Assembly: GCF_000013045.1 (NCBI RefSeq)
Contig: NC_007677.1
Span: forward strand, 2,046,001 to 2,110,000
DNA: 64,000 nucleotides
From: Salinibacter ruber DSM 13855
GTDB lineage: Bacteria; Bacteroidota; Rhodothermia; Rhodothermales; Salinibacteraceae
Reading direction: 5' to 3'
The notes under the pieces are model-generated. The model was not told the origin of the DNA, ran no database searches, and worked only from the letters and a program-made list of their open reading frames with translations. A program made the position numbers and the translations under genes. Position 1 is the stretch's first letter. The number at the start of each line of letters is the position of its first letter. This document shows positions 17,371-27,753 of the stretch, piece after piece.

Positions 17371-18609
17371 TCATCCGGACGCCGTGCCGCCGAGGGTTCC
17401 GGATTTGGCCTGTTCGATGAAGGTGTTCAGGCACTTCTGGGTGCGAGACTCTACGAAGTGCCCATTGATCAGCACCGTCGGGGTGCTGTCAACCCCAACC
17501 TTCACGGCCCGCTTTCGCTGCTGAAGGACCTGATCCCGATATTCGTTCTGCTCCACCCGTTCGCTCAGCACGCTGGGGTCGAGGTCAATCTCTTCCGCGA
17601 TGGCCCGGAGGTCCTGCATCCCAATGCCGCCTGGTCCCTGACGCGCGTACTGCGCCTCCAGCATCTCGTTAAACTTGTCGGACTGGGCCGCCACGTACAG
17701 GGCCTGGATCTCCGGCAGCGACGAGCGACGGAGCGGGAACGGCTTGTAGACAAACCGCACCTCGTCGCGGTGGGCCTCCACCACCTGCTTCATGACCTGG
17801 TGAAAGTCTTTGCAGTGGGGACAGTTTGGATCAAAGTACTCGATGACCGTCACCCCGGCTTCGTTGCTGCCCGCAGTGATGTCCTGAAAGCCGACGAGTG
17901 AGGCCCCCTGGTCCTGCAACGGCGTCTTCGAGTCGTCGAGCTCGCACTGGGCCGGGGCGGCCGACTCAGACGCGGAGCGGGGCTGCGGGGCCGCTGCACT
18001 CGTCTCGTCGAAGTAGACAAGATCCATCCCGACGAGGACGGCCGCGGCGGCGGCGCAGTAGACGAAGAGGGCGACCTGCCGTTTTACGAGTCGAGACGAC
18101 ATGGAATCAGGAGGGGATGTTGGTGAGGAAGCAAGCAGGGCAACCTGTCCTGCAAACAGGAGGGTCGTGATCAGGGCCGATCCCAAACACAGAAGGCACA
18201 GGGTCCCCAGGGGACCGATCTGGAGATACGTGAGGTACGCCGAGTACGCAATCCCGCCCGTGAGCAGACCGATTCGGGCCCCGTGGATCCACGCTCGCAC
18301 CTTCGGCACCACCCAGAAGACGGCGACGGTGAGCACGCCGACCATTCCATAAAACCCGAGCCCCCAAGTTGTGTTGGGCACCCCCAGGAGTTTGCTTCCC
18401 GCCCCGGCGGTCACCGCCGCGCAGTCGAAGATGGACGAACCGCCCCCGAGCGCGGAGCCCCCGAGGCATCCATTCTCGAAGGTCCTGGCCTGCTGGATCA
18501 AGAGGTGCACGACGTCGAGAACCCCCAACAGGGAAAGCCCAAACACCACAGCCTCCAGGCGCGGACGGTATCCCCGCAGCCGTTCGCGAAGAGTCTGCAC
18601 CAGAGGCAT
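17371..18609 (-). CDS. VKOR-DsbA fusion (thiol oxidation) membrane protein
   Basis: A 412-residue fusion that would make periplasmic disulfides and reoxidise itself against quinone. Residues ~18-170 are a vitamin K epoxide reductase (VKOR) domain with several membrane helices. They carry a loop cysteine pair (Cys48 in NGCLGG, Cys63 in FDCAAV) and the active CxxC Cys138-Leu-Leu-Cys141. A TM segment at ~178-200 leads into a DsbA/thioredoxin-like domain with Cys263-Pro-His-Cys266 (FDPNCPHCKDF) and cis-Pro in VDSTPTVLINGHFV. Known VKOR fusions carry out both steps of the DsbA/DsbB relay. The start ATG 18609 (MPLVQTLRERLRG) is chosen; the longer frame adds a non-matching leader. Confidence 0.9.
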   Translation of the reverse strand: MPLVQTLRERLRGYRPRLEAVVFGLSLLGVLDVVHLLIQQARTFENGCLGGSALGGGSSIFDCAAVTAGAGSKLLGVPNTTWGLGFYGMVGVLTVAVFWVVPKVRAWIHGARIGLLTGGIAYSAYLTYLQIGPLGTLCLLCLGSALITTLLFAGQVALLASSPTSPPDSMSSRLVKRQVALFVYCAAAAAVLVGMDLVYFDETSAAAPQPRSASESAAPAQCELDDSKTPLQDQGASLVGFQDITAGSNEAGVTVIEYFDPNCPHCKDFHQVMKQVVEAHRDEVRFVYKPFPLRRSSLPEIQALYVAAQSDKFNEMLEAQYARQGPGGIGMQDLRAIAEEIDLDPSVLSERVEQNEYRDQVLQQRKRAVKVGVDSTPTVLINGHFVESRTQKCLNTFIEQAKSGTLGGTASG

Positions 18610-18759
18610 GGCCGCTTGGATTGGGGTCGGGATTGAGGCTCCGTAGAACCAAAACCTGAGCCAACTGCAGGTTCCTCCCTCCCCGCGCAACGGATCCTGG
18701 CCGGGCAGGGCCTCCGCCTTCCTCCGCAGATCCTCCAATTGAATTTCAAACCGTTCCCG

Positions 18760-18788
18760 TTGCGAATGATGATTCTGGGTGGTACCCT
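18760..18788 (+). promoter_or_regulatory. Candidate promoter of the trp operon leader
   Basis: TTGCGA (18760-18765), a 17-base spacer, and TACCCT (18783-18788). Transcription would start only a few bases before the trpL ATG, giving a near-leaderless start. This is the best -35/-10 pair I can see, but the match is modest. Confidence 0.3.
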
Positions 18789-18796
18789 ACAGTTGT

Positions 18797-18880
18797 ATGA
18801 TTGACAAAAGCGGCATCACATCCTTCGGCTGGTGGCTCTGGCGGCCTTCTCTACGGGTCGAGAGCCCTATGCGTGCCTGA
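18797..18880 (+). CDS. trpL: trp operon leader peptide (Trp-Trp-Leu-Trp)
   Basis: A 27-codon frame beginning ATG ATT GAC AAA and ending TGA at 18878-18880. The product contains GWWLWR, three tryptophans in four residues (codons 12, 13 and 15 at 18830-18841), although Trp is otherwise rare in these proteins. It ends 36 bases before a terminator hairpin that precedes trpE. Position, length and Trp content match classical leader peptides of attenuation-controlled trp operons. A ribosome stalled at the Trp codons would cover RNA segment 1 (18834-18841). No Shine-Dalgarno is visible, as for most genes here. Coding is inferred from this arrangement. Confidence 0.85.
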   Translation: MIDKSGITSFGWWLWRPSLRVESPMRA

Positions 18881-18921
18881 TTGCTGTGCACTGCCCCTCG
18901 TACTGAATGGCTCTGGACCCG
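18834..18921 (+). promoter_or_regulatory. trp attenuator: competing RNA segments 1, 2 and 3
   Basis: Segment 1 is GGCTCTGG (18834-18841), lying on the leader's Trp codons. Segment 2 is CGGGTCGAGAGCC (18854-18866). Segment 3 is GGCTCTGGACCCG (18909-18921). Segments 1 and 3 share the same octamer GGCTCTGG, so both can pair with AGAGCC of segment 2. Pairing 2:3 gives 12 of 13 base pairs (one G-G mismatch) and occupies five bases of the 5' arm of the terminator stem at 18917-18940. Ribosome stalling on segment 1 would free segment 2 to pair with 3 and allow readthrough. With plentiful Trp-tRNA the terminator forms. Confidence 0.8.
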
Positions 18922-18950
18922 CTGCCAATTGGTAGCGGGTTTTTGTTTTG
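18917..18950 (+). terminator. trp attenuator terminator hairpin (segments 3:4)
   Basis: ACCCGCTGCC, loop AATT, GGTAGCGGGT (10 bp with one G-U pair), followed directly by TTTTGTTTTG. It ends 20 bases before the trpE ATG and lies entirely in the leader. Confidence 0.92.
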
Positions 18951-18969
18951 CCCCTTGTCTTCTCCACAC

Positions 18970-20478
18970 ATGACCTACGACGACTTTCGCACACGTGTCG
19001 AGACTGCCCGGGCCAACGGCCTGTCCCGTCTCGTGGTGCCCGTACACGCCCGTCGGAGTGCCGATCTCCTCACCCCGGTCTCGGCGTACCTCGCCCTCCG
19101 GGAGGACTCTCCATTCAGCTTTCTCTTCGAGAGCGTGGAAGGGGGGGAAAAGTTGGCCCGCTACTCCTTTCTGGGGCGCGACCCGTACCGCATTCTAACG
19201 GGCCAGGCGTTTGGGGCCACGGTCGAGGTGGACGAGCGCCGCACGCCCTCGCCGGAGGCCGGCCTGCCCACCCCCACCGGCTCCATCTTCGACGTGCTGG
19301 ATGCGTACCTGGACCGATACGAGGAGGTCGAACTGCCGGACCTGCCCCGGCTGAGGGGCGGGGCCGTGGGCTACCTCGGATACGACGCCGTGCGTCTCGT
19401 GGAGGACCTCCCGGACGCCCCCCCGGACGACCTCGGCCTCCCCGACGCGGTGTGGTGCTTCTACGACACCGTCGCCGCCTTCGACCACGTCCGCCACCAG
19501 CTCGTGCTGATGGCAAACGTGTTCGTCGACGAGGAGACCGACCTGCGCGCCGCGTTCGAACACGCCCAGGCCCGCCTCGCCGACCTGGAGGCGGACCTCA
19601 AGCGCTCCTCCGATCCCCCAGCCCCCGTCGAGTGGACGCAGGCGGAGCTCACGTCCAACATCGAGCAGCCTGCCTTCGAGGACGCCGTCCGGACGGCCAA
19701 GGATCACATCCAGAAGGGCGACATCTTTCAAGTCGTCCTGTCGCAGCGCTTCGCGACCGCCTTCGAGGGGGACCGCTTCAACCTGTACCGCGCCCTGCGC
19801 CAGGTCAACCCCTCGCCCTACCTCTTTTACCTCGACCTCGACGACCTCGCGCTCGTGGGCTCGTCGCCGGAGGTGCTGGTGCGGGCCGAGGACGGCACGG
19901 CCGAGGTGCTGCCGATCGCAGGCACGCGGCCGCGGGGTGAGGACGAGGAGGAAGACGAGGCCCTCGCCGAGGAGCTGCTCGACGACACCAAGGAGCGCGC
20001 CGAGCACTTGATGCTCGTCGACCTGGGCCGCAACGACCTGGGCCGCGTCTGCCAGTACGCCACCGTGGAGGTGGACCGGTACGCCTACGTCGAACGGTAC
20101 TCCCACGTCATGCACATCGTGTCGTCGGTCAAGGGCGCGCTCGCCCCCGACCAGAGCTCCATGGATGCCCTGGCGGCCTGCTTCCCGGCCGGGACGGTCA
20201 GTGGCGCGCCCAAGGTGCGGGCGATGGAGATCATCGACGACCTGGAGCCCTCCCGGCGCGGGGTCTACGCCGGGGCCGTCGGCTACGTCGACTTCTCCGG
20301 AACCCTCGATACCTGCATCACCATCCGCACCATGGTCGTGGCCGACGAGACGGCGTACGTGCAGGCCGGTGCGGGCATCGTCGCGGACAGCGACCCTGCC
20401 CGCGAGTACGAGGAAACCCGGGACAAGGCCGCCGCCCTCCGGCAGGCCCTTCGGGTAGCCTCGGAGGGGCTGCTGTAA
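18970..20478 (+). CDS. trpE: Anthranilate synthase component I (TrpE)
   Basis: Converts chorismate and ammonia (supplied by TrpG) to anthranilate, the first step of Trp synthesis. 502 residues from ATG 18970. An in-frame ATG at 18907 is rejected because the terminator hairpin would then lie in coding sequence. The N-terminal domain has FLFESVEGGEKLARYSFLG, matching the LLES-type Trp-feedback segment. The chorismate-binding domain shows DIFQVVLSQRF, PSPYLFYLDL, VGSSPEVLVR, PIAGTRPRG, DLGRNDLGRV, FPAGTVSGAPKVRAMEII and the C-terminal YVQAGAGIVADSDPAREYEET. The sequence is full length and acidic. First structural gene of the operon, directly controlled by the attenuator. Confidence 0.97.
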   Translation: MTYDDFRTRVETARANGLSRLVVPVHARRSADLLTPVSAYLALREDSPFSFLFESVEGGEKLARYSFLGRDPYRILTGQAFGATVEVDERRTPSPEAGLPTPTGSIFDVLDAYLDRYEEVELPDLPRLRGGAVGYLGYDAVRLVEDLPDAPPDDLGLPDAVWCFYDTVAAFDHVRHQLVLMANVFVDEETDLRAAFEHAQARLADLEADLKRSSDPPAPVEWTQAELTSNIEQPAFEDAVRTAKDHIQKGDIFQVVLSQRFATAFEGDRFNLYRALRQVNPSPYLFYLDLDDLALVGSSPEVLVRAEDGTAEVLPIAGTRPRGEDEEEDEALAEELLDDTKERAEHLMLVDLGRNDLGRVCQYATVEVDRYAYVERYSHVMHIVSSVKGALAPDQSSMDALAACFPAGTVSGAPKVRAMEIIDDLEPSRRGVYAGAVGYVDFSGTLDTCITIRTMVVADETAYVQAGAGIVADSDPAREYEETRDKAAALRQALRVASEGLL

Positions 20479-20586: not shown

Positions 20587-21066
20587 ATGCCGAACCCCAT
20601 CAAAGAGGCCCTTCTCAACCGCGGCTGGGCCGGCCAGACGCTCAGCCGGTCCGAGACGGTCGACCGCATCGACCCGCTCATCCGGCAGCACATTGAGCTG
20701 AACCACCACTACGGCGCCGCCATCCGCCACTGCGACGACGAGCGCGTCGTGGACGTGCTGGAGCGCCTTCAGAAGACCGCCCGTACCGACGTGGGCAAGC
20801 TGTCCGAGACCGTTCTGAGCTGCGGCGGCACGCCGTACAACGGCACGGACCTGTCCCCCGAGGACTTTACGCTGAAGGGGTCGCTGAGCAATCTCTTCGA
20901 GGAGCTCCGCGATCTCGAGACGGCGTTCAACGACGCCCTCGGGGAGGAGCTCGACCTCGAGCACCAGATGCGAACCCGCGGCGTGCTCCAGGCAATCCGG
21001 AGCAACAGCCAGGACCGCCTCGACGCCCTCGACGCCCTCCAACGACGCATCGGCGACGCGGCGTAG
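20587..21066 (+). CDS. Uncharacterised helical protein inside the trp operon
   Basis: A 159-residue soluble acidic protein between trpE and trpS (gaps of 108 and 49 bases). It looks like a four-helix bundle. Helix 1 is around DRIDPLIRQHIELNHHYGAAIRH, helix 2 around VVDVLERLQKTARTDVGKLSETVL, then a Gly/Pro turn (SCGGTPYNGTDLSPEDF), helix 3 around LSNLFEELRDLETAFNDALGEE, and helix 4 ending SNSQDRLDALDALQ. The layout is reminiscent of ferritin-like DUF2383/PA2169 proteins, with Glu and His residues on the helices, but I cannot confirm a metal site. No tryptophan-pathway enzyme is missing from the operon, so it is an accessory or regulatory candidate. Confidence 0.8.
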   Translation: MPNPIKEALLNRGWAGQTLSRSETVDRIDPLIRQHIELNHHYGAAIRHCDDERVVDVLERLQKTARTDVGKLSETVLSCGGTPYNGTDLSPEDFTLKGSLSNLFEELRDLETAFNDALGEELDLEHQMRTRGVLQAIRSNSQDRLDALDALQRRIGDAA

Positions 21067-21115: not shown

Positions 21116-22150
21116 ATGGAAGCCACCGACTCTGCCTCGCCCCCGGACACCGAACACCCCGCCGACCCGGTCGTGGTCTCCGGCATCCAGCCGTCCGGCC
21201 GCCTGCACCTGGGCAACTACTTTGGGGCCCTTCGTCAACACATCGATCTGCACCAGCAGCACGACGCCTACTACTTCATCGTGAACTACCACGCGATGAC
21301 GACGGTGCAGGACGCGGAGCGGCTCCGCGAGCACACCTTCAACGTGGCGCTGGACTACCTTGCCCTCGGCTTCGACCCCGACGAGGCGGCCCTCTTCGTG
21401 CAGAGCGACGTGCCGGAGGTAACCGAGCTCATGTGGATTTTCTTCAACCTCCTCCCCACGAGCGCCCTCGAGAAGGGGGTGGCCTACAAGGACAAGGTGG
21501 AGGCCGGCCTTACGCCGAACGCGGGCCTCTTCAACTACCCGGTGCTCCAGGCCGCCGACATCCTCGCGTACGGCGGCTCGCTGGTGCCCGTCGGGGCGGA
21601 CCAGAAACAGAACCTGGAGATCGCCCGCGACCTGGCCCGTCGCTTTAACAACCGGTTCTGCCCGGAGGACGAGCCGCTCCTCCCCGTCCCTGAGCCCCAG
21701 ATTCTCGACGACGTGGCCGTGGTCCCCGGCACCGATGGGCGCAAGATGTCGAAGAGCTACGACAACACCATCGGCATTTTCGACGAGGGCGATGCGCTGG
21801 AGGAGAAGGTGATGAACATCGTGACCGACTCCACCCCCCTCGACGCCCCAAAGGACCCGGCGTCCTGCAACGTCTTCGCCCTGATCACCCTGTTTGCCGA
21901 CGCGGAGACCCAGCAGGAGATCGCGGACAAGTACCGGGCCGGCGGGTACGGCTACGGGCACGCCAAGCAGGCGCTCCAAGAACTGATCGAGGAACACTTC
22001 GCCGAAGCACGGGCCCGGCGCAAGGACCTCGAACAGCGGCCGGACTACGTGCGCGACGTGCTCCGGCAGGGCGCGAAGGAGGCCCGGGCCCAGGCCGAGC
22101 CCCTCCTGGAAAAGGTGCGCGACCGGGTCGGCCTGGTCCGCACCCACTAA
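21116..22150 (+). CDS. trpS: Tryptophanyl-tRNA synthetase (TrpS)
   Basis: Class I synthetase that charges tRNA-Trp in the cytoplasm. 344 residues, normal for the bacterial enzyme. VVSGIQPSGRLHLGNYFGALR contains the HIGH-type HLGN. The Trp/ATP pocket segments NYPVLQAADILAYGGSLVPVGADQKQNLEIARDLARRFN and GTDGRKMSKSYDNTI (KMSKS) are intact, and the C-terminal helical anticodon-binding part is present. The first ~20 residues are an acidic extra. It is embedded in the trp operon between the unknown orf and trpG, on the same strand with short gaps, so it should be co-attenuated with the biosynthetic genes. That makes charging capacity part of the same feedback loop. Confidence 0.96.
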   Translation: MEATDSASPPDTEHPADPVVVSGIQPSGRLHLGNYFGALRQHIDLHQQHDAYYFIVNYHAMTTVQDAERLREHTFNVALDYLALGFDPDEAALFVQSDVPEVTELMWIFFNLLPTSALEKGVAYKDKVEAGLTPNAGLFNYPVLQAADILAYGGSLVPVGADQKQNLEIARDLARRFNNRFCPEDEPLLPVPEPQILDDVAVVPGTDGRKMSKSYDNTIGIFDEGDALEEKVMNIVTDSTPLDAPKDPASCNVFALITLFADAETQQEIADKYRAGGYGYGHAKQALQELIEEHFAEARARRKDLEQRPDYVRDVLRQGAKEARAQAEPLLEKVRDRVGLVRTH

Positions 22151-22273: not shown

Positions 22274-22876
22274 ATGATTCTGGTCATAGACAACTACGAC
22301 TCGTTCACCTACAACCTCGTCCACCTTGCGGGCCGCGAGACGGACGACCTAGAAGTGGTCCGCAACGACGACCTTACGGTCGCGGACGTGGCAGCCCGCG
22401 ACCCGGACGGCATTCTGATTTCGCCGGGCCCGGGGCATCCGTCGGAGGCCGGCATCACGGAGCCGGTCATCCGGGAGCTCGGCGCGACGACCCCCATCCT
22501 GGGCGTCTGCCTCGGGCACCAGGCCATCGGGGAGGTCTACGGCGGGTCCGTCACCCAGGCCGACGAGCTGATGCACGGCAAGACGAGCCCGGTCCTCCAC
22601 GAGGGCACCCCGCTCTTTGAAGATGTCGACCCGTCGTTTGACGCAACCCGGTACCACTCCCTCGTCATCGACCCGGACACCTTCCCCCACGAGGCCCTGG
22701 AGGTGACGGCCACGACGGAGGAGCACGACACGATCATGGCCCTCCGCCACCGCACCCATCCGCTGTACGGCATCCAATTCCACCCGGAAAGCGTGATGAC
22801 GCGGGCCGGGCCGACGATCATTGCCAACTGGCTCTCGATCGCACTGGACGAGCGGTCCCCCGCCCCCACATCCTAA
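22274..22876 (+). CDS. trpG: Anthranilate synthase component II, glutamine amidotransferase (TrpG)
   Basis: Supplies ammonia from glutamine to TrpE. 200 residues, a class I GATase. It starts MILVIDNYDSFTYNLVHL. The oxyanion segment is ISPGPGHPSEAG, the nucleophile Cys lies in GVCLGHQAIGEVYGG, and the His-x-Glu partners are in YGIQFHPESVMTRAG. TrpG homologues can also serve PabB as aminodeoxychorismate synthase amidotransferase. The window's PabB-PabC fusion has no dedicated PabA nearby, so shared use is possible. Located between trpS and trpD, 45 bases before trpD, in the operon. Confidence 0.95.
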   Translation: MILVIDNYDSFTYNLVHLAGRETDDLEVVRNDDLTVADVAARDPDGILISPGPGHPSEAGITEPVIRELGATTPILGVCLGHQAIGEVYGGSVTQADELMHGKTSPVLHEGTPLFEDVDPSFDATRYHSLVIDPDTFPHEALEVTATTEEHDTIMALRHRTHPLYGIQFHPESVMTRAGPTIIANWLSIALDERSPAPTS

Positions 22877-22921: not shown

Positions 22922-23956
22922 GTGAACACCCTGCTTCAAACCATCGCCGACGGCGATCCGCTCTCCCGCCCGGAGGCCGAGGAGGCCATGGCCACGATGA
23001 TGAGCGGCTCTGCGCGGGACGAGCACATCGCCGCCCTGTTGATGGGCCTGCGCACCCGGGGCGAGACGCTGGACGAGCTGGTCGGGTTCACGAAAACCAT
23101 GCGGGAGTTTGCCGTCTCGGTGGAGACCGACGACCCCCAGACCATCGACCTTTGCGGCACCGGGGGCGACGGGGCCAGCACCTTCAACATCTCCACCACC
23201 GCCTCCTTCATTGCGGCGGGCGCCGGGGCGACCGTGGCCAAGCACGGCAACCGCTCGGTCTCGTCCCAGTCCGGCTCCGCCGACGTCCTGGAGGCCCTAG
23301 GCGTACAGATCGACCTCGAAAAGGAGGGCGTGGAGCACTGCCTCCACGAGGCCGGCATCGCGTTCCTGTTCGCCCCCTTCTTCCATCCCGCCATGCGGCA
23401 CGTGATGCCGGTGCGCAAGGCGCTCGGGGTCCGGACCTTCTTCAACATCCTCGGCCCCCTCTGCAACCCGGCCGGCGTCACCCGACAGATCGTGGGCGCC
23501 TTCGACACGAGCACGGCCCAGACGATGGTGCGCATCCTCGCCGAGCTCGACGCCGACCACGTCATCACACTCCACGCCGACGACGGGCTGGACGAGGTCA
23601 GCATTTCCGCCTCCACCACGCTCTTCGAGTACGACGCCTCCGACCAGAACCCGGTCCCACGGAGTCACGAGGTGGGTCCGGAGCGCCACGACCTGGATCG
23701 GGCCTCCATATCCACCCTCGAAGGCGGTACCGCTCAGCAAAACGCCTCCATCCTCCGCAACATCCTGTCCGGGGAGGACCAAGGCCCCCGCCGCGACGTC
23801 GCGCTGTTGAACGCCGCCTATGCGCTCCACGTCAGCGACCAGTACGCCGACCTCGACGCCTGCCTGGAGGCCGCCGCGGAGAGCATCGACTCGGGCGCCG
23901 CGCTCGACGCCCTCAACACCCTCGCAAGCGTGTCGAAGGAGGCCAAGTCCGAGTAA
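22922..23956 (+). CDS. trpD: Anthranilate phosphoribosyltransferase (TrpD)
   Basis: Couples anthranilate to PRPP. 344 residues with a GTG start (MNTLLQTIADGDPLSRPEAEEAM). The PRPP loop CGTGGDGASTFNISTTASFIAAGAGATVAKHGNRSVSSQSGSADVLEALG appears in pieces matching the family: GTGGD, NIST, KHGN-R and S-GSAD. The anthranilate site follows with HPAMRHVMPVRKALGVRTFFNILGPLCNP and the metal DE pair in GLDEVS. Full length, not fused to TrpG. Operon position between trpG and trpC. Confidence 0.96.
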   Translation: MNTLLQTIADGDPLSRPEAEEAMATMMSGSARDEHIAALLMGLRTRGETLDELVGFTKTMREFAVSVETDDPQTIDLCGTGGDGASTFNISTTASFIAAGAGATVAKHGNRSVSSQSGSADVLEALGVQIDLEKEGVEHCLHEAGIAFLFAPFFHPAMRHVMPVRKALGVRTFFNILGPLCNPAGVTRQIVGAFDTSTAQTMVRILAELDADHVITLHADDGLDEVSISASTTLFEYDASDQNPVPRSHEVGPERHDLDRASISTLEGGTAQQNASILRNILSGEDQGPRRDVALLNAAYALHVSDQYADLDACLEAAAESIDSGAALDALNTLASVSKEAKSE

Positions 23957-24016: not shown

Positions 24017-24829
24017 GTGAGCATCCTGGACGACATTATCGACGACACCCGCGAGCTCGTGGAGCAGCGGAAACAAGAAACCCCGACCTCGGAGCTCAAG
24101 GAGCGTCCGTTCTACGACGAGCGGGAGCCCCTCTCCCTCGCGGAGGCCCTGAAAGAGCGGGGCCTCTCGTTCATCGCGGAGGTCAAAAAGGCGTCTCCCT
24201 CCAAGGGCGTCATCCGGGACCCGTTCGATCCCGCCGCCATCGCTCAGCAGTACGCCGAGCACGACGCCGCCGCGATCAGTGTGCTTACGGAGCCGCTCCA
24301 CTTTGAGGGGGCCCTGGAGCACATGGCCTGGATCCGTGCCCACGTGCCCGAGACGCCGCTGCTGCGAAAAGACTTTATCATCGACCCGTACCAGCTGGTG
24401 GAGGCGCGGGCGGTGGGGGCCGACGCGGTCCTGCTCATCGCGACGGCCCTCGACCCGGGTCAGCTCGCCGAGCTGCATGCCGCCGCCACCGAGCTCGGGC
24501 TCTCTTGCCTCGTGGAGGTGTACGAGGAGGAGGACCTCGACAAGATCGATTGGGAGCAGGTGAGCGTCCTCGGGGTGAACAACCGAGACCTCCACACCTT
24601 CGAGGTCGACCTCGACAACTCGCTCCGCATCTTCGACCAAACCCCGAAGGGGGTCGGGCGCGTGGCCGAAAGCGGGTTGAGCGACCCCGAGACGCTCGTC
24701 CGCCTCCGCAAGGCCGGCGTCAACGGCGTCCTGATCGGCGAGCACCTGATGCGTGCGGAGCATCCCGGCGAGGCGCTCTCTCGGCTGCGCGCCGAGGGCA
24801 AGAAGATCGCCGCTCAGCAGGCCGGCTAA
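24017..24829 (+). CDS. trpC: Indole-3-glycerol-phosphate synthase (TrpC)
   Basis: Closes the indole ring from CdRP. 270 residues with a GTG start ([20 protein letters not shown]). The TIM-barrel signatures are [16 protein letters not shown] (catalytic Lys and substrate phosphate region), [82 protein letters not shown] and [10 protein letters not shown]. It is a separate polypeptide, not fused with TrpF as in enterobacteria. It lies 60 bases after trpD and 70 before trpF. Confidence 0.97.
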
Positions 24830-24899: not shown

Positions 24900-25565
24900 A
24901 TGGGAGTTGAGCTCAAAGTTTGCGGCATCACAGAACTCGAAGACGCACGCTACCTGGCGGGCGCCGGGGCCGACTACCTCGGCTTCGTCCAACACGAGGA
25001 GAGCGCCCGCTACGCCCCTCCGGCCCTCGCCAGCGACATTATCGAATGGGTGCACGGGCCGGCCCCGGTTGGGGTGTTCGTGAACGACGGCGCCGACACG
25101 ATCAACGAGGCCGTGGACACCGCCGGCTTCGAGCTTGCCCAGCTCCACGGGCAGGAGCCCGCCCACGTCGTGGAGCGCGTCGACTGCCCCGTGATCAAGG
25201 CGATTCACGTGCGGCACGACGCGGCCCCGAACCAGCTCCGGACCCTCTTCGAACGCTACGAAGACGGGGTCGAGTATTTTCTGCTGGACACCCACGACTC
25301 GAGCGTGTGGGGCGGCACCGGCGAGTCGTTCAACTGGCGCCTCGCCCGCGAGCTGGCGGAGGACTATCCGGTCTTCCTGGCCGGTGGGCTGAACGCCGAC
25401 AACGTGGCCCGGGCGCTCGAAACGATGCGCCCGTTCGCCGTCGATTTGTCCAGCAGCCTGGAGTCCGCCCCCGGACAGAAGAGCTTCGAGAAGATCGACG
25501 CGTTCATGGATGCGTTTCAGGCCGCGGCGGCCGAGTTGGAAGAAGCCGAAACGCATGACCCCTGA
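24900..25565 (+). CDS. trpF: Phosphoribosylanthranilate isomerase (TrpF)
   Basis: Isomerises PRA to CdRP, the step between TrpD and TrpC. 221 residues from ATG 24900 ([19 protein letters not shown]). The catalytic Cys is in KVCGI and the catalytic Asp is in [21 protein letters not shown]. Other conserved parts are [36 protein letters not shown] and [19 protein letters not shown], which holds the phosphate-binding and SSGVE-like element (here SSSLES). The open frame upstream to 24753 overlaps trpC and is Arg-rich, so it is not used. Confidence 0.96.
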
Positions 25566-25643
25566 CCCGGACCGCAACGCGAGTGTCGCGTAAGAGAGTA
25601 CCGGTATTCCCGACCGCTATTCACTCTGCAAGAGTTGCCCGCC

Positions 25644-26864
25644 ATGTCCTCTCCCGCTACCACGTCTCGTGCGGACACCCTCCCCGATACCGATGGCCAC
25701 TTCGGCTCGTACGGGGGAGCGTTCGTGCCGGAGACCCTTACCCCTGTACTGGAGGAGTTGAAGGCCGCCTACGACACGTATAAGGACGACCCGGACTTCC
25801 AGGCCGACCTCCGCGCCCTCCTCCGTGAATACGCCGGGCGGCCCACCCCCCTCTCCTACTGCGACCGCCTGACCGAACGGATCGGCGGGGCCCGCATCTA
25901 CGCGAAGCGGGAAGACCTTTGCCACACCGGGGCCCACAAAATTAACAACACGCTCGGCCAGATCCTGCTGGCGACGCGCATGGGCAAGGAGCGCATCATT
26001 GCCGAAACCGGGGCCGGGCAGCACGGGGTGGCCACCGCCACGGTCTGCGCCAAGTTCGGCGTCGACTGCGTGATTTACATGGGGGCGGAGGACATGGAAC
26101 GCCAGCGCCTCAACGTGGAGCGCATGGAGCTGCTGGGCGCGGAGGTTCGGGCGGCGACCTCGGGCAGCCAAACCCTGAAGGAGGCCACCAACGAGGCCAT
26201 TCGGGACTGGGTGTCCAACCCGGACGACACGTTCTACATCATCGGCTCCGTCGTGGGCCCGCACCCCTATCCCATGATGGTGCGCAACTTTCACCGGGTG
26301 ATCGGCACCGAGACGCGTCGCCAGCTCCGTGAGGAGACCGGCCGGGAGACGCCGGACGCCATCGCGGCCTGCGTGGGGGGCGGCTCCAACGCCATCGGCA
26401 TCTTCCATCCGTTCCTCGACGACCCCGAGGTGCAACTGCACGGGACGGAGGCGGCGGGCGGCGGCCTCGACGGCGACCACGCGGCCACCCTTGCCGAGGG
26501 GTCGCCGGGCGTCCTGCACGGGGCGATGAGCTACCTCCTGCAGGACGACGCCGGTCAGGTGAGCCTCGCCCACTCGCTCTCCGCCGGCCTCGACTACCCC
26601 GGCGTGGGGCCCGAGCACGCCCACCTGCGCGACGAGGGACGCGTCTCGTACCACCCGGTGACCGACGACGAGGCCCTGGACGGGGTGGAGCTTCTCTCCC
26701 AAACGGAAGGCATCATCCCGGCGCTCGAAACGGCGCACGCCGTCGCCCTCCTGCCCGAGCTGGCGCGCACCCTGGCCGAGGAGCGCGGGGACGACGCCGT
26801 CCTCGTCTTTAACTGCTCCGGCCGGGGCGACAAGGACATGCAGACCATCGCCGCACACCGGTAA
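25644..26864 (+). CDS. trpB: Tryptophan synthase beta chain (TrpB)
   Basis: PLP enzyme that joins indole and serine. 406 residues from ATG 25644; a TTG three codons upstream is less likely. [16 protein letters not shown] is the family N-terminus. PLP Lys lies in [18 protein letters not shown], the indole/serine loop is [13 protein letters not shown], and the phosphate cup is [15 protein letters not shown]. The C-terminal [13 protein letters not shown] is the cofactor-binding end. It is the TrpB1 type, which pairs with TrpA, and trpA lies 52 bases downstream. Confidence 0.97.
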
Positions 26865-26916: not shown

Positions 26917-27753
26917 ATGTCCCGACTCGACGAGACGTTCGATGCCCTCGGCCCTGACGAAAAGGCCATGGGGCTCTTCCTCACGGACGGGTTCCCGAAT
27001 CCCGACGCGACCGTCCCCCTGCTCCACGCGATCGATCGCGGGGGGGCTGACTTCATCGAGCTGGGCATGCCCTTCAGCGATCCACTGGCCGAAGGGCGTC
27101 CCATCCAGCGGGCCAGCGCCCGGGCCCTCTCCCACGGGGTCACACTGCCCGACACCCTCCGGACCGTCGAGGCGTTTCGGGAGGACAGCGACACGCCCCT
27201 CCTGTTGATGGGCTACGTCAACCCGGTGTTCAAGTACGGGGTCGATGCCTTCTGCCGGGACGCGGCGGAGGCCGGCGTCGACGGCCTCATCCTGCCGGAC
27301 CTGCCCCCGCAGGAGAGCGACGCGCTCTGCGACGCGGCCGCCGCCCACGGCCTGGAGCTGGTCTTCCTGATCGCCCCCAACACCTCCGACGAACGGATTC
27401 GGGTCGTCGACGAGCGGGCCACGGGCTTCGTCTACGCCGTGAGCGTAACCGGCCTCACGGGCAGCGACCTGGCCGAGACGCCGAGCGTAGACGAGTATCT
27501 GATGCACGCCCGAGATTTTGTGGCACAAAACCCCCTCCTCGTCGGCTTCGGCATCAAGACCCACGACGACGCAATGGAGCTGAGCCGGCACACCGACGGC
27601 TTCATTGTCGGCTCCGCCCTCATCAACCGCGTTGAGGCCCTTTGGGAGGACCCGGAGCGGTCGACGACGGACCGCCTCGATACGGTGGAGGGGTTTGCCC
27701 GCCACCTCAAATCGGGGACGCCGGTCCCTACCCCTCAACCCAACCCGGCATGA
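26917..27753 (+). CDS. trpA: Tryptophan synthase alpha chain (TrpA)
   Basis: Cleaves indole-3-glycerol phosphate and channels indole to TrpB. 278 residues. The catalytic Glu lies in [15 protein letters not shown] and the catalytic Asp in the same block (SDP). Further signatures are [50 protein letters not shown] (loop 6), [11 protein letters not shown] and FIVGSALI. It is the last trp gene; 124 bases follow before the next gene, containing a perfect 16-bp palindrome but no clear terminator. The C-terminal ~12 residues are Pro-rich and extra. Confidence 0.96.

Follow-up and report, generated by a model that had tools for sequence, protein, structure and literature searches.

Positions 18797-18950 of the 64,000-nucleotide stretch of Salinibacter ruber DSM 13855 DNA analysed here (hereafter "the window") lie directly upstream of trpE and combine a short Trp-rich reading frame with a hairpin resembling an intrinsic terminator, raising the question of whether this region is a ribosome-mediated transcription attenuator that senses charged tRNA-Trp. 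From the comparative and folding analyses described below, we conclude that it very probably is.

The trp leader is predicted to adopt two mutually exclusive structures

A preliminary description of this locus, made from the window alone, had proposed a 27-codon leader frame containing Trp-Trp-Leu-Trp, and this frame is present at 18797-18880 (Table 1). The octamer GGCTCTGG was recovered exactly at the two places given for it, on the Trp codons (18834-18841) and at 18909-18916. Folding confirmed that 18854-18866 has two mutually exclusive partners in the window: it can form 12 of 13 possible pairs with 18909-18921, with a computed energy of -26.1 kcal/mol, or pair with the Trp-codon region in a 1:2 hairpin (computed energy of 18822-18870, -18.8 kcal/mol). 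The terminator and its U-rich tail were also found, with the correction that the stem is slightly longer than the 10 bp first noted, since it forms 12 pairs at 18915-18942. The stop codon of the leader is at 18878, so that segment 2 lies inside the ORF. Folding of 18797-18960 gives a minimum free energy (MFE) of -65 kcal/mol (z -3.27), a value equalled by 2 of 200 shuffles. Since the upstream gene (17371-18738) runs on the minus strand, this plus-strand terminator was assigned to the trp transcript, and the possibility that it terminates the upstream gene was ruled out.

Table 1. Coordinates of the features of the trp leader and operon in the window
Feature	Position	Strand	Details and basis
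GAATTTCAAACC box upstream of the -35 element	18741..18752	+	exact in 9/12 genus rows, variant in 3
Putative -35/-33 element TTG	18760..18762	+	spacing to TAnnnT across leaders; 20 nt in the window
Putative -10/-7 element TACCCT	18783..18788	+	start predicted at ~18795
trpL leader peptide ORF MIDKSGITSFGWWLWRPSLRVESPMRA	18797..18880	+	27 codons; predicted leaderless; ORF list, cross-species comparison
Control codons TGG TGG CTC TGG	18830..18841	+	TGG at 18830, 18833, 18839
Segment 1	18830..18847	+	partner 18855-18869; folding, genus alignment
Segment 2	18854..18866	+	within the leader ORF; folding, co-variation
Segment 3, antiterminator partner	18909..18921	+	overlaps the terminator 5' arm; folding, co-variation
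Predicted intrinsic terminator hairpin (3:4)	18915..18942	+	12 pairs, 3 of these G-U
U-rich tail of the terminator	18943..18950	+	sequence
trpE	18970..20478	+	PF00425, PF04715
Small conserved operon protein	20587..21066	+	predicted ferritin-like four-helix bundle
trpS, tryptophanyl-tRNA synthetase, within the operon	21116..22150	+	TIGR00233, 271.9 bits (cut-off 176.75)
trpG	22274..22876	+	PF00117; tblastn neighbour
trpD	22922..23956	+	PF00591, PF02885
trpC	24017..24829	+	PF00218
trpF	24900..25565	+	PF00697
trpB	25635..26864	+	TIGR00263
trpA	26917..27753	+	PF00290

We then folded the transcript with a ribosome masking part of the RNA, assuming a footprint that extends from the A-site codon by 15 nt on its 5' side and 13 nt on its 3' side. 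With the ribosome stalled on the Trp codons, the MFE structure was the antiterminator; in the ensemble of this stalled state, for a transcript reaching 18944, the terminator-side arm pairs kept probabilities of 0.57-0.68, some of them being compatible with the antiterminator. For the same transcript, a ribosome placed at the stop codon gave the terminator with a probability of 0.99, and folding without any ribosome gave the 1:2 hairpin together with the terminator (probability 1.0).

The leader layout recurs throughout the class and in other Bacteroidota

We collected regions upstream of trpE from the genus (11), the rest of the family (10), the order (39), the class outside the order (21) and the phylum outside the class (19). 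The order sample corresponds to 39 regions fetched among 74 matches outside the family and spread over families, the class and phylum regions are a chosen part of their matches, and one family genome with a split match (G010) was left out. The class presumably corresponds to Rhodothermia, with Balneolales as its other large group. Adding the window gave 101 regions, among which one of 121 nt that ends at a contig end (L102) was excluded from the shuffle tests, hence n=100. Genomes that are at least 90% complete contributed 4 of the 10 regions of the family outside the genus, one of these being that same cut region.

A strict detector required an intrinsic terminator downstream of an ATG-initiated ORF that is 8-60 codons long and has a pair of TGG codons lying no more than 3 codons apart. 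It was positive in 78 of the 100 Bacteroidota regions, compared with 3 of 500 dinucleotide shuffles. When the window is included and the cut region is counted as a miss, positives were found in 12/12 regions of the genus, 7/10 of the rest of the family, 29/39 of the order, 18/21 of the class and 12/19 of the phylum. A relaxed detector, positive in 1 of 300 shuffles, brought the total to 82/100, so that 22 regions were negative with the strict detector and 18 with both; both regions from one genus of the family (L103 and L142) were among the negatives. By eye, three positives (L100, L113 and L136) and one region rescued by the relaxed detector (L154) appeared doubtful. In a separate set of 80 trpE loci, scanned with a detector that also allowed GTG starts, 6 were positive: two titled Bacteroidota or Bacteroidetes (L002 and L003), which apparently correspond to two genomes already in the region set, and four from other phyla. 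Loci not titled Bacteroidota or Bacteroidetes were thus positive in 4 of 78 cases; one of these 78, titled Ignavibacteriae (L009), was negative.

For each of the 78 leaders, the start was taken as the ATG nearest to the Trp block that still lies at least 5 codons before it. Two or three consecutive TGG codons were present in 71 of these leaders, and the leader peptides differ widely outside the Trp block. The preliminary description had made its reading depend on the conservation of the Trp codons and of segments 2 and 3 in relatives, and this is what we found: the layout is present in all 12 genus genomes, where the 2:3 stem has 96.5% of its cells paired, and it extends far beyond the genus.

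Segment 2 co-varies with the terminator arm across species

We analysed the pairing between segment 2 and the terminator arm in the 78 leaders (mean z -2.56). In 52 of them, no more than 5 of 100 shuffles did as well. The 26 antiterminators that did not clearly exceed shuffles included 10 of the 12 from outside the class and 5 of the 7 from the family outside the genus, so that 2 of 12 and 2 of 7, respectively, passed. When terminator arms were swapped between species, own pairs were 4.5 kcal/mol better than swapped ones after double centring, which removes the stickiness of each partner (z -12.9; the lowest of 10,000 permutations reached -1.44), with the reservation that relatedness makes this permutation somewhat generous. 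The swap test was also positive in each of four groups taken separately (z -3.1 to -7.0).

Within the genus, the terminator stem is nearly invariant (98.6% of cells paired). The single double-change pair of the 2:3 stem was reached by 125 of 500 shuffles, and the 1:2 stem has 79.8% of its cells paired, its covariation score being equalled or exceeded in 33 of 500 shuffles. Because these stems hardly vary, covariation within the genus is no evidence. Co-variation is seen across species, between segment 2 and the terminator arm, and does not exceed shuffles within the genus.

A putative promoter close to the leader AUG predicts a leaderless start in the class

Since a scan of the window leader with an E. 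coli-type sigma-70 consensus returned 0 promoters, we used a looser rule modelled on the Bacteroidota consensus, TTG-N19-21-TAnnnT, with the box 5-11 nt before the ATG. Over the 78 leaders, 60 instances of a TAnnnT box end 6-10 nt before the leader ATG, compared with no more than 5 at any other single offset, and among the 65 leaders with such a box in the scanned zone, a TTG lies 18-22 nt upstream in 60 and exactly 20 nt upstream in 46. The joint rule was satisfied by 54 of the 78 leaders, against a shuffle mean of 0.8; of 720 further ATGs within these regions, 7 satisfied it. This pattern belongs mainly to the class, being found in 52 of 66 leaders inside the class and in 2 of 12 outside, and 24 of the 78 leaders have no leaderless promoter by this rule. 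Upstream zones also contained TTTCAA in 19 of 78 cases, compared with 0-4 in ten shuffles. As a separate observation, the GAATTTCAAACC box of the window might serve as an UP element or bind an activator.

Because the Bacteroidota promoter box is taken to lie at -12 to -5, as given in passages of PMC9723704, transcription in the window is predicted to start at about 18795. The corresponding 5' UTR would be 2 nt long, and 0-4 nt in the 54 leaders that carry the pattern. An SD-like sequence was detected in 1 of the 78 leaders, and excerpts of PMC9976891 state that ribosomes of Bacteroidia fail at Shine-Dalgarno recognition. Considering that the promoter box lies 5-11 nt before the ATG, mostly inside the class, trpL is likely to be leaderless, a start predicted from promoter position. 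In 264 kb of the same genome, such a promoter was found near 16 of 193 predicted genes and in 0 of these 16 at 5-11 nt before an in-frame start, numbers that come from a small sample with rough gene starts; the promoter of the trp operon itself, seen from trpE, may be one of the 16. In other Bacteroidota, messages with such short 5' UTRs have been reported to form a minority: 5' UTRs of less than 10 nt make up 3.7% in Bacteroides thetaiotaomicron, the leaderless share is 5.5% in Flavobacterium psychrophilum (PMC9723704), and 5' UTRs of 10 nt or less account for at most 13% in F. johnsoniae.

The operon downstream of the leader includes trpS

The trp operon is complete, as had been proposed, with trpE, trpG, trpD, trpC, trpF, trpB and trpA all present on the same strand. 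In the window, a small ORF and trpS are inserted between trpE and trpG, and the arrangement trpE - small ORF - trpS - trpG recurs in L002 and L003, both genomes from the same taxonomic order. The small protein shares 40-48% identity with the proteins encoded at the same place in these two genomes and gave no Pfam or NCBIfam match. Its predicted structure (pLDDT 87.4, from four sequences) is a four-helix bundle, for which the best PDB matches were Dps proteins and bacterioferritins, with PA2169 lower in the list. Since trpS belongs to the operon, the switch probably governs the enzyme that charges the very tRNA that is sensed. To our knowledge, the enterobacterial trp operon has no such TrpS feedback loop.

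Upstream regions of hisG and ilvB contain possible leader ORFs

Leaders of hisG and ilvB were scanned for general attenuation, with mixed results. Upstream of ilvB, in the same genome (L204) and at two further loci (L202 and L203), leader ORFs are rich in Leu, Ile and Val. By eye, these leaders share a hairpin of the CCAATCCC / GGGATTGG type without a U tract after the ORF, and a GGGATTG-like stretch also occurs upstream in the leader; they are possibly a branched-chain attenuator of another type. Upstream of hisG, short His-rich ORFs were flagged in 5 of 14 Bacteroidota genomes (L185, L186, L190, L191 and L197), the strongest candidates being L185, L190 and L197; L197 alone is followed by a good terminator.

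Proposed mechanism and alternative explanations

Building on the observed sequence, its conservation, the co-variation of segment 2 with the terminator arm and the masked folding energies, we infer how the start, leaderless translation, stalling and termination would take place in the cell. RNA polymerase would start at about 18795, and a ribosome would load on the nearly bare 5' AUG (18797) without a Shine-Dalgarno site. When charged Trp-tRNA is scarce, this ribosome would stall at 18830-18841 and cover segment 1, and the free segment 2 (18854-18866) would pair with segment 3 (18909-18921), taking the base of the terminator stem; with the antiterminator formed, transcription would continue into trpE and the remaining genes, trpS included. 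When charged Trp-tRNA is plentiful, the ribosome would instead reach the stop codon at 18878 and cover the end of segment 2, leaving segment 3 free, and the terminator would form, yielding a short RNA of about 150 nt that ends near 18948. The classical ribosome-dependent attenuation logic put forward in the preliminary description is thus supported by the layout in 78 of 100 regions, by the arm swap (z -12.9) and by masked folding.

The same locus could be read as a constitutive premature terminator preceded by a fortuitous Trp-rich ORF, the hairpin trimming expression while tryptophan is not sensed, and it is well established that terminators before operons are not rare. However, Trp codons and terminator come together in 78 of 100 regions, the Trp codons are arranged as two or three consecutive TGG in 71 of 78 leaders, and the terminator arm changes in step with segment 2 between species, which makes this explanation very unlikely. 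We consider it extremely unlikely that this terminator is controlled by another sensor, for instance a T-box, a TRAP-like protein or a different riboswitch. Sensors of this kind are well known upstream of trp genes in Firmicutes, but the window leader has no Rfam match at gathering thresholds, none of its four weak hits (E up to 5) is a T-box, and it contains 3 (G/U)AG triplets, against the 11 repeats that TRAP binds according to passages of PMC4027176; neither the Rfam scan nor the triplet count gave support to a T-box, to TRAP or to another catalogued riboswitch.

Two further explanations keep the attenuator and modify how it works. In one, transcription begins far ahead of the ATG, giving the leader peptide an ordinary 5' UTR, in line with median 5' UTRs of 24 nt in Flavobacterium psychrophilum (PMC9723704) and 32 nt in Bacteroides thetaiotaomicron, with a locus matching RF01692 (L222) whose box lies 19 nt before the ATG, and with the 24 of 78 leaders that lack the promoter pattern. 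Against this, the box lies mostly 6-10 nt before the ATG in the class of the window, and we regard such a start as unlikely for trpL. In the other, the leader RNA or peptide additionally acts in trans, as in Sinorhizobium meliloti, where excerpts of PMC7298713 describe a likewise leaderless trpL whose products act in trans; such an added role appears quite unlikely here, considering that the peptides differ widely outside the Trp block.

Returning to the ribosome-mediated attenuator with its predicted start at the AUG, we lean slightly towards a broader reading in which the class around Salinibacter would have its own attenuator lineage, with a leader peptide that is leaderless as a rule, a ribosome near the stop codon that covers segment 2 directly, and a switch that also sets the level of TrpS in a feedback loop. 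If this reading is true, leaderless leader peptides would be the rule in the class, though most messages have longer 5' UTRs in those Bacteroidota for which they have been measured. What is very probably the textbook trp switch, with leader Trp codons and co-varying segments, runs through a deep class in which the Rfam model for the Bacteroidota trp leader has no match, and our alignments could be used to build a new RNA family model and to annotate trpL. If the predicted start is correct, these leaders would also be a natural test of how a ribosome, lacking both a Shine-Dalgarno site and a 5' UTR, initiates fast enough to keep up with RNA polymerase and remain coupled to it.

Comparison with known attenuators

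Trp leader attenuation in Bacteroidota has an important precedent in the Bacteroid-trp RNA, catalogued as RF01692 "Bacteroidete tryptophan peptide leader RNA" (Weinberg et al. 2010, PMC2864571, Table 1). In our cmscan searches, RF01692 matched one of our loci (L177), which overturns the view, suggested to us by Naville and Gautheret 2010 (PMC2965389), that no leader attenuation is known in Bacteroidota. With stricter filters than usual, RF01692 matched 0 of 238 genomes of the class of the window, the S. ruber genome included. Among 148 genomes drawn from the phylum it matched 13, all 13 in one family and 11 of them over the cut-off; the control, Bacteroides ihuae, also matched. The window leader itself matched neither RF01692 nor RF00513 at gathering score, and among 26 other loci, the sole RF00513 hit, in L155, lay on the opposite strand and scored 29.5 bits, below the cut-off of 41. 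Bacteroid-trp resembles the window leader in being an RNA with a Trp-rich leader peptide directly before trpE in Bacteroidota, with a model that ends in the terminator 5' arm; unlike the window leader, it has a different terminator sequence. Its members vary in their start, the box lying 7 nt before the ATG in L177, close to it as in the window, and 19 nt before it in L222. We also observed that the RF01692 model (423-539 in L177 and 1501-1629 in L222) begins about 20 nt before the leader AUG and that, in L177, this stretch contains the TATATTTG promoter box, so that the model may in part describe promoter DNA instead of RNA.

For Flavobacterium psychrophilum, PMC9723704 mentions leader-peptide attenuation before amino-acid biosynthesis operons in one general sentence, and the word "tryptophan" has 0 occurrences in its main text. 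Among the matches listed in our literature search, which covered titles, abstracts and passages and had most subscription journals outside its reach, we found no description of the element for Salinibacter or its class, and none of attenuation with a leader peptide in Salinibacter.

The enterobacterial trp attenuator (RF00513 Trp_leader, E. coli trpL) shares with the window leader, by its proposed mechanism, the stalling on tandem Trp codons and the 1:2 / 2:3 / 3:4 logic. In E. coli trpL, the stop codon precedes segment 2. The window leader differs in that almost no 5' UTR is predicted, no Shine-Dalgarno sequence is present and segment 2 lies inside the leader ORF. Streptomyces lividans (PMC8079986) and Sinorhizobium meliloti (PMC7298713) have leaderless trpL genes that also encode a Trp-rich leader peptide before trpE; they belong to other phyla and their starts are reported from transcript data, whereas the start in the window is predicted. 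Altogether, the trp leader of S. ruber very probably belongs to a known kind of switch, here in a class whose 238 genomes gave no RF01692 match, and its predicted start almost at the AUG is distinctive.
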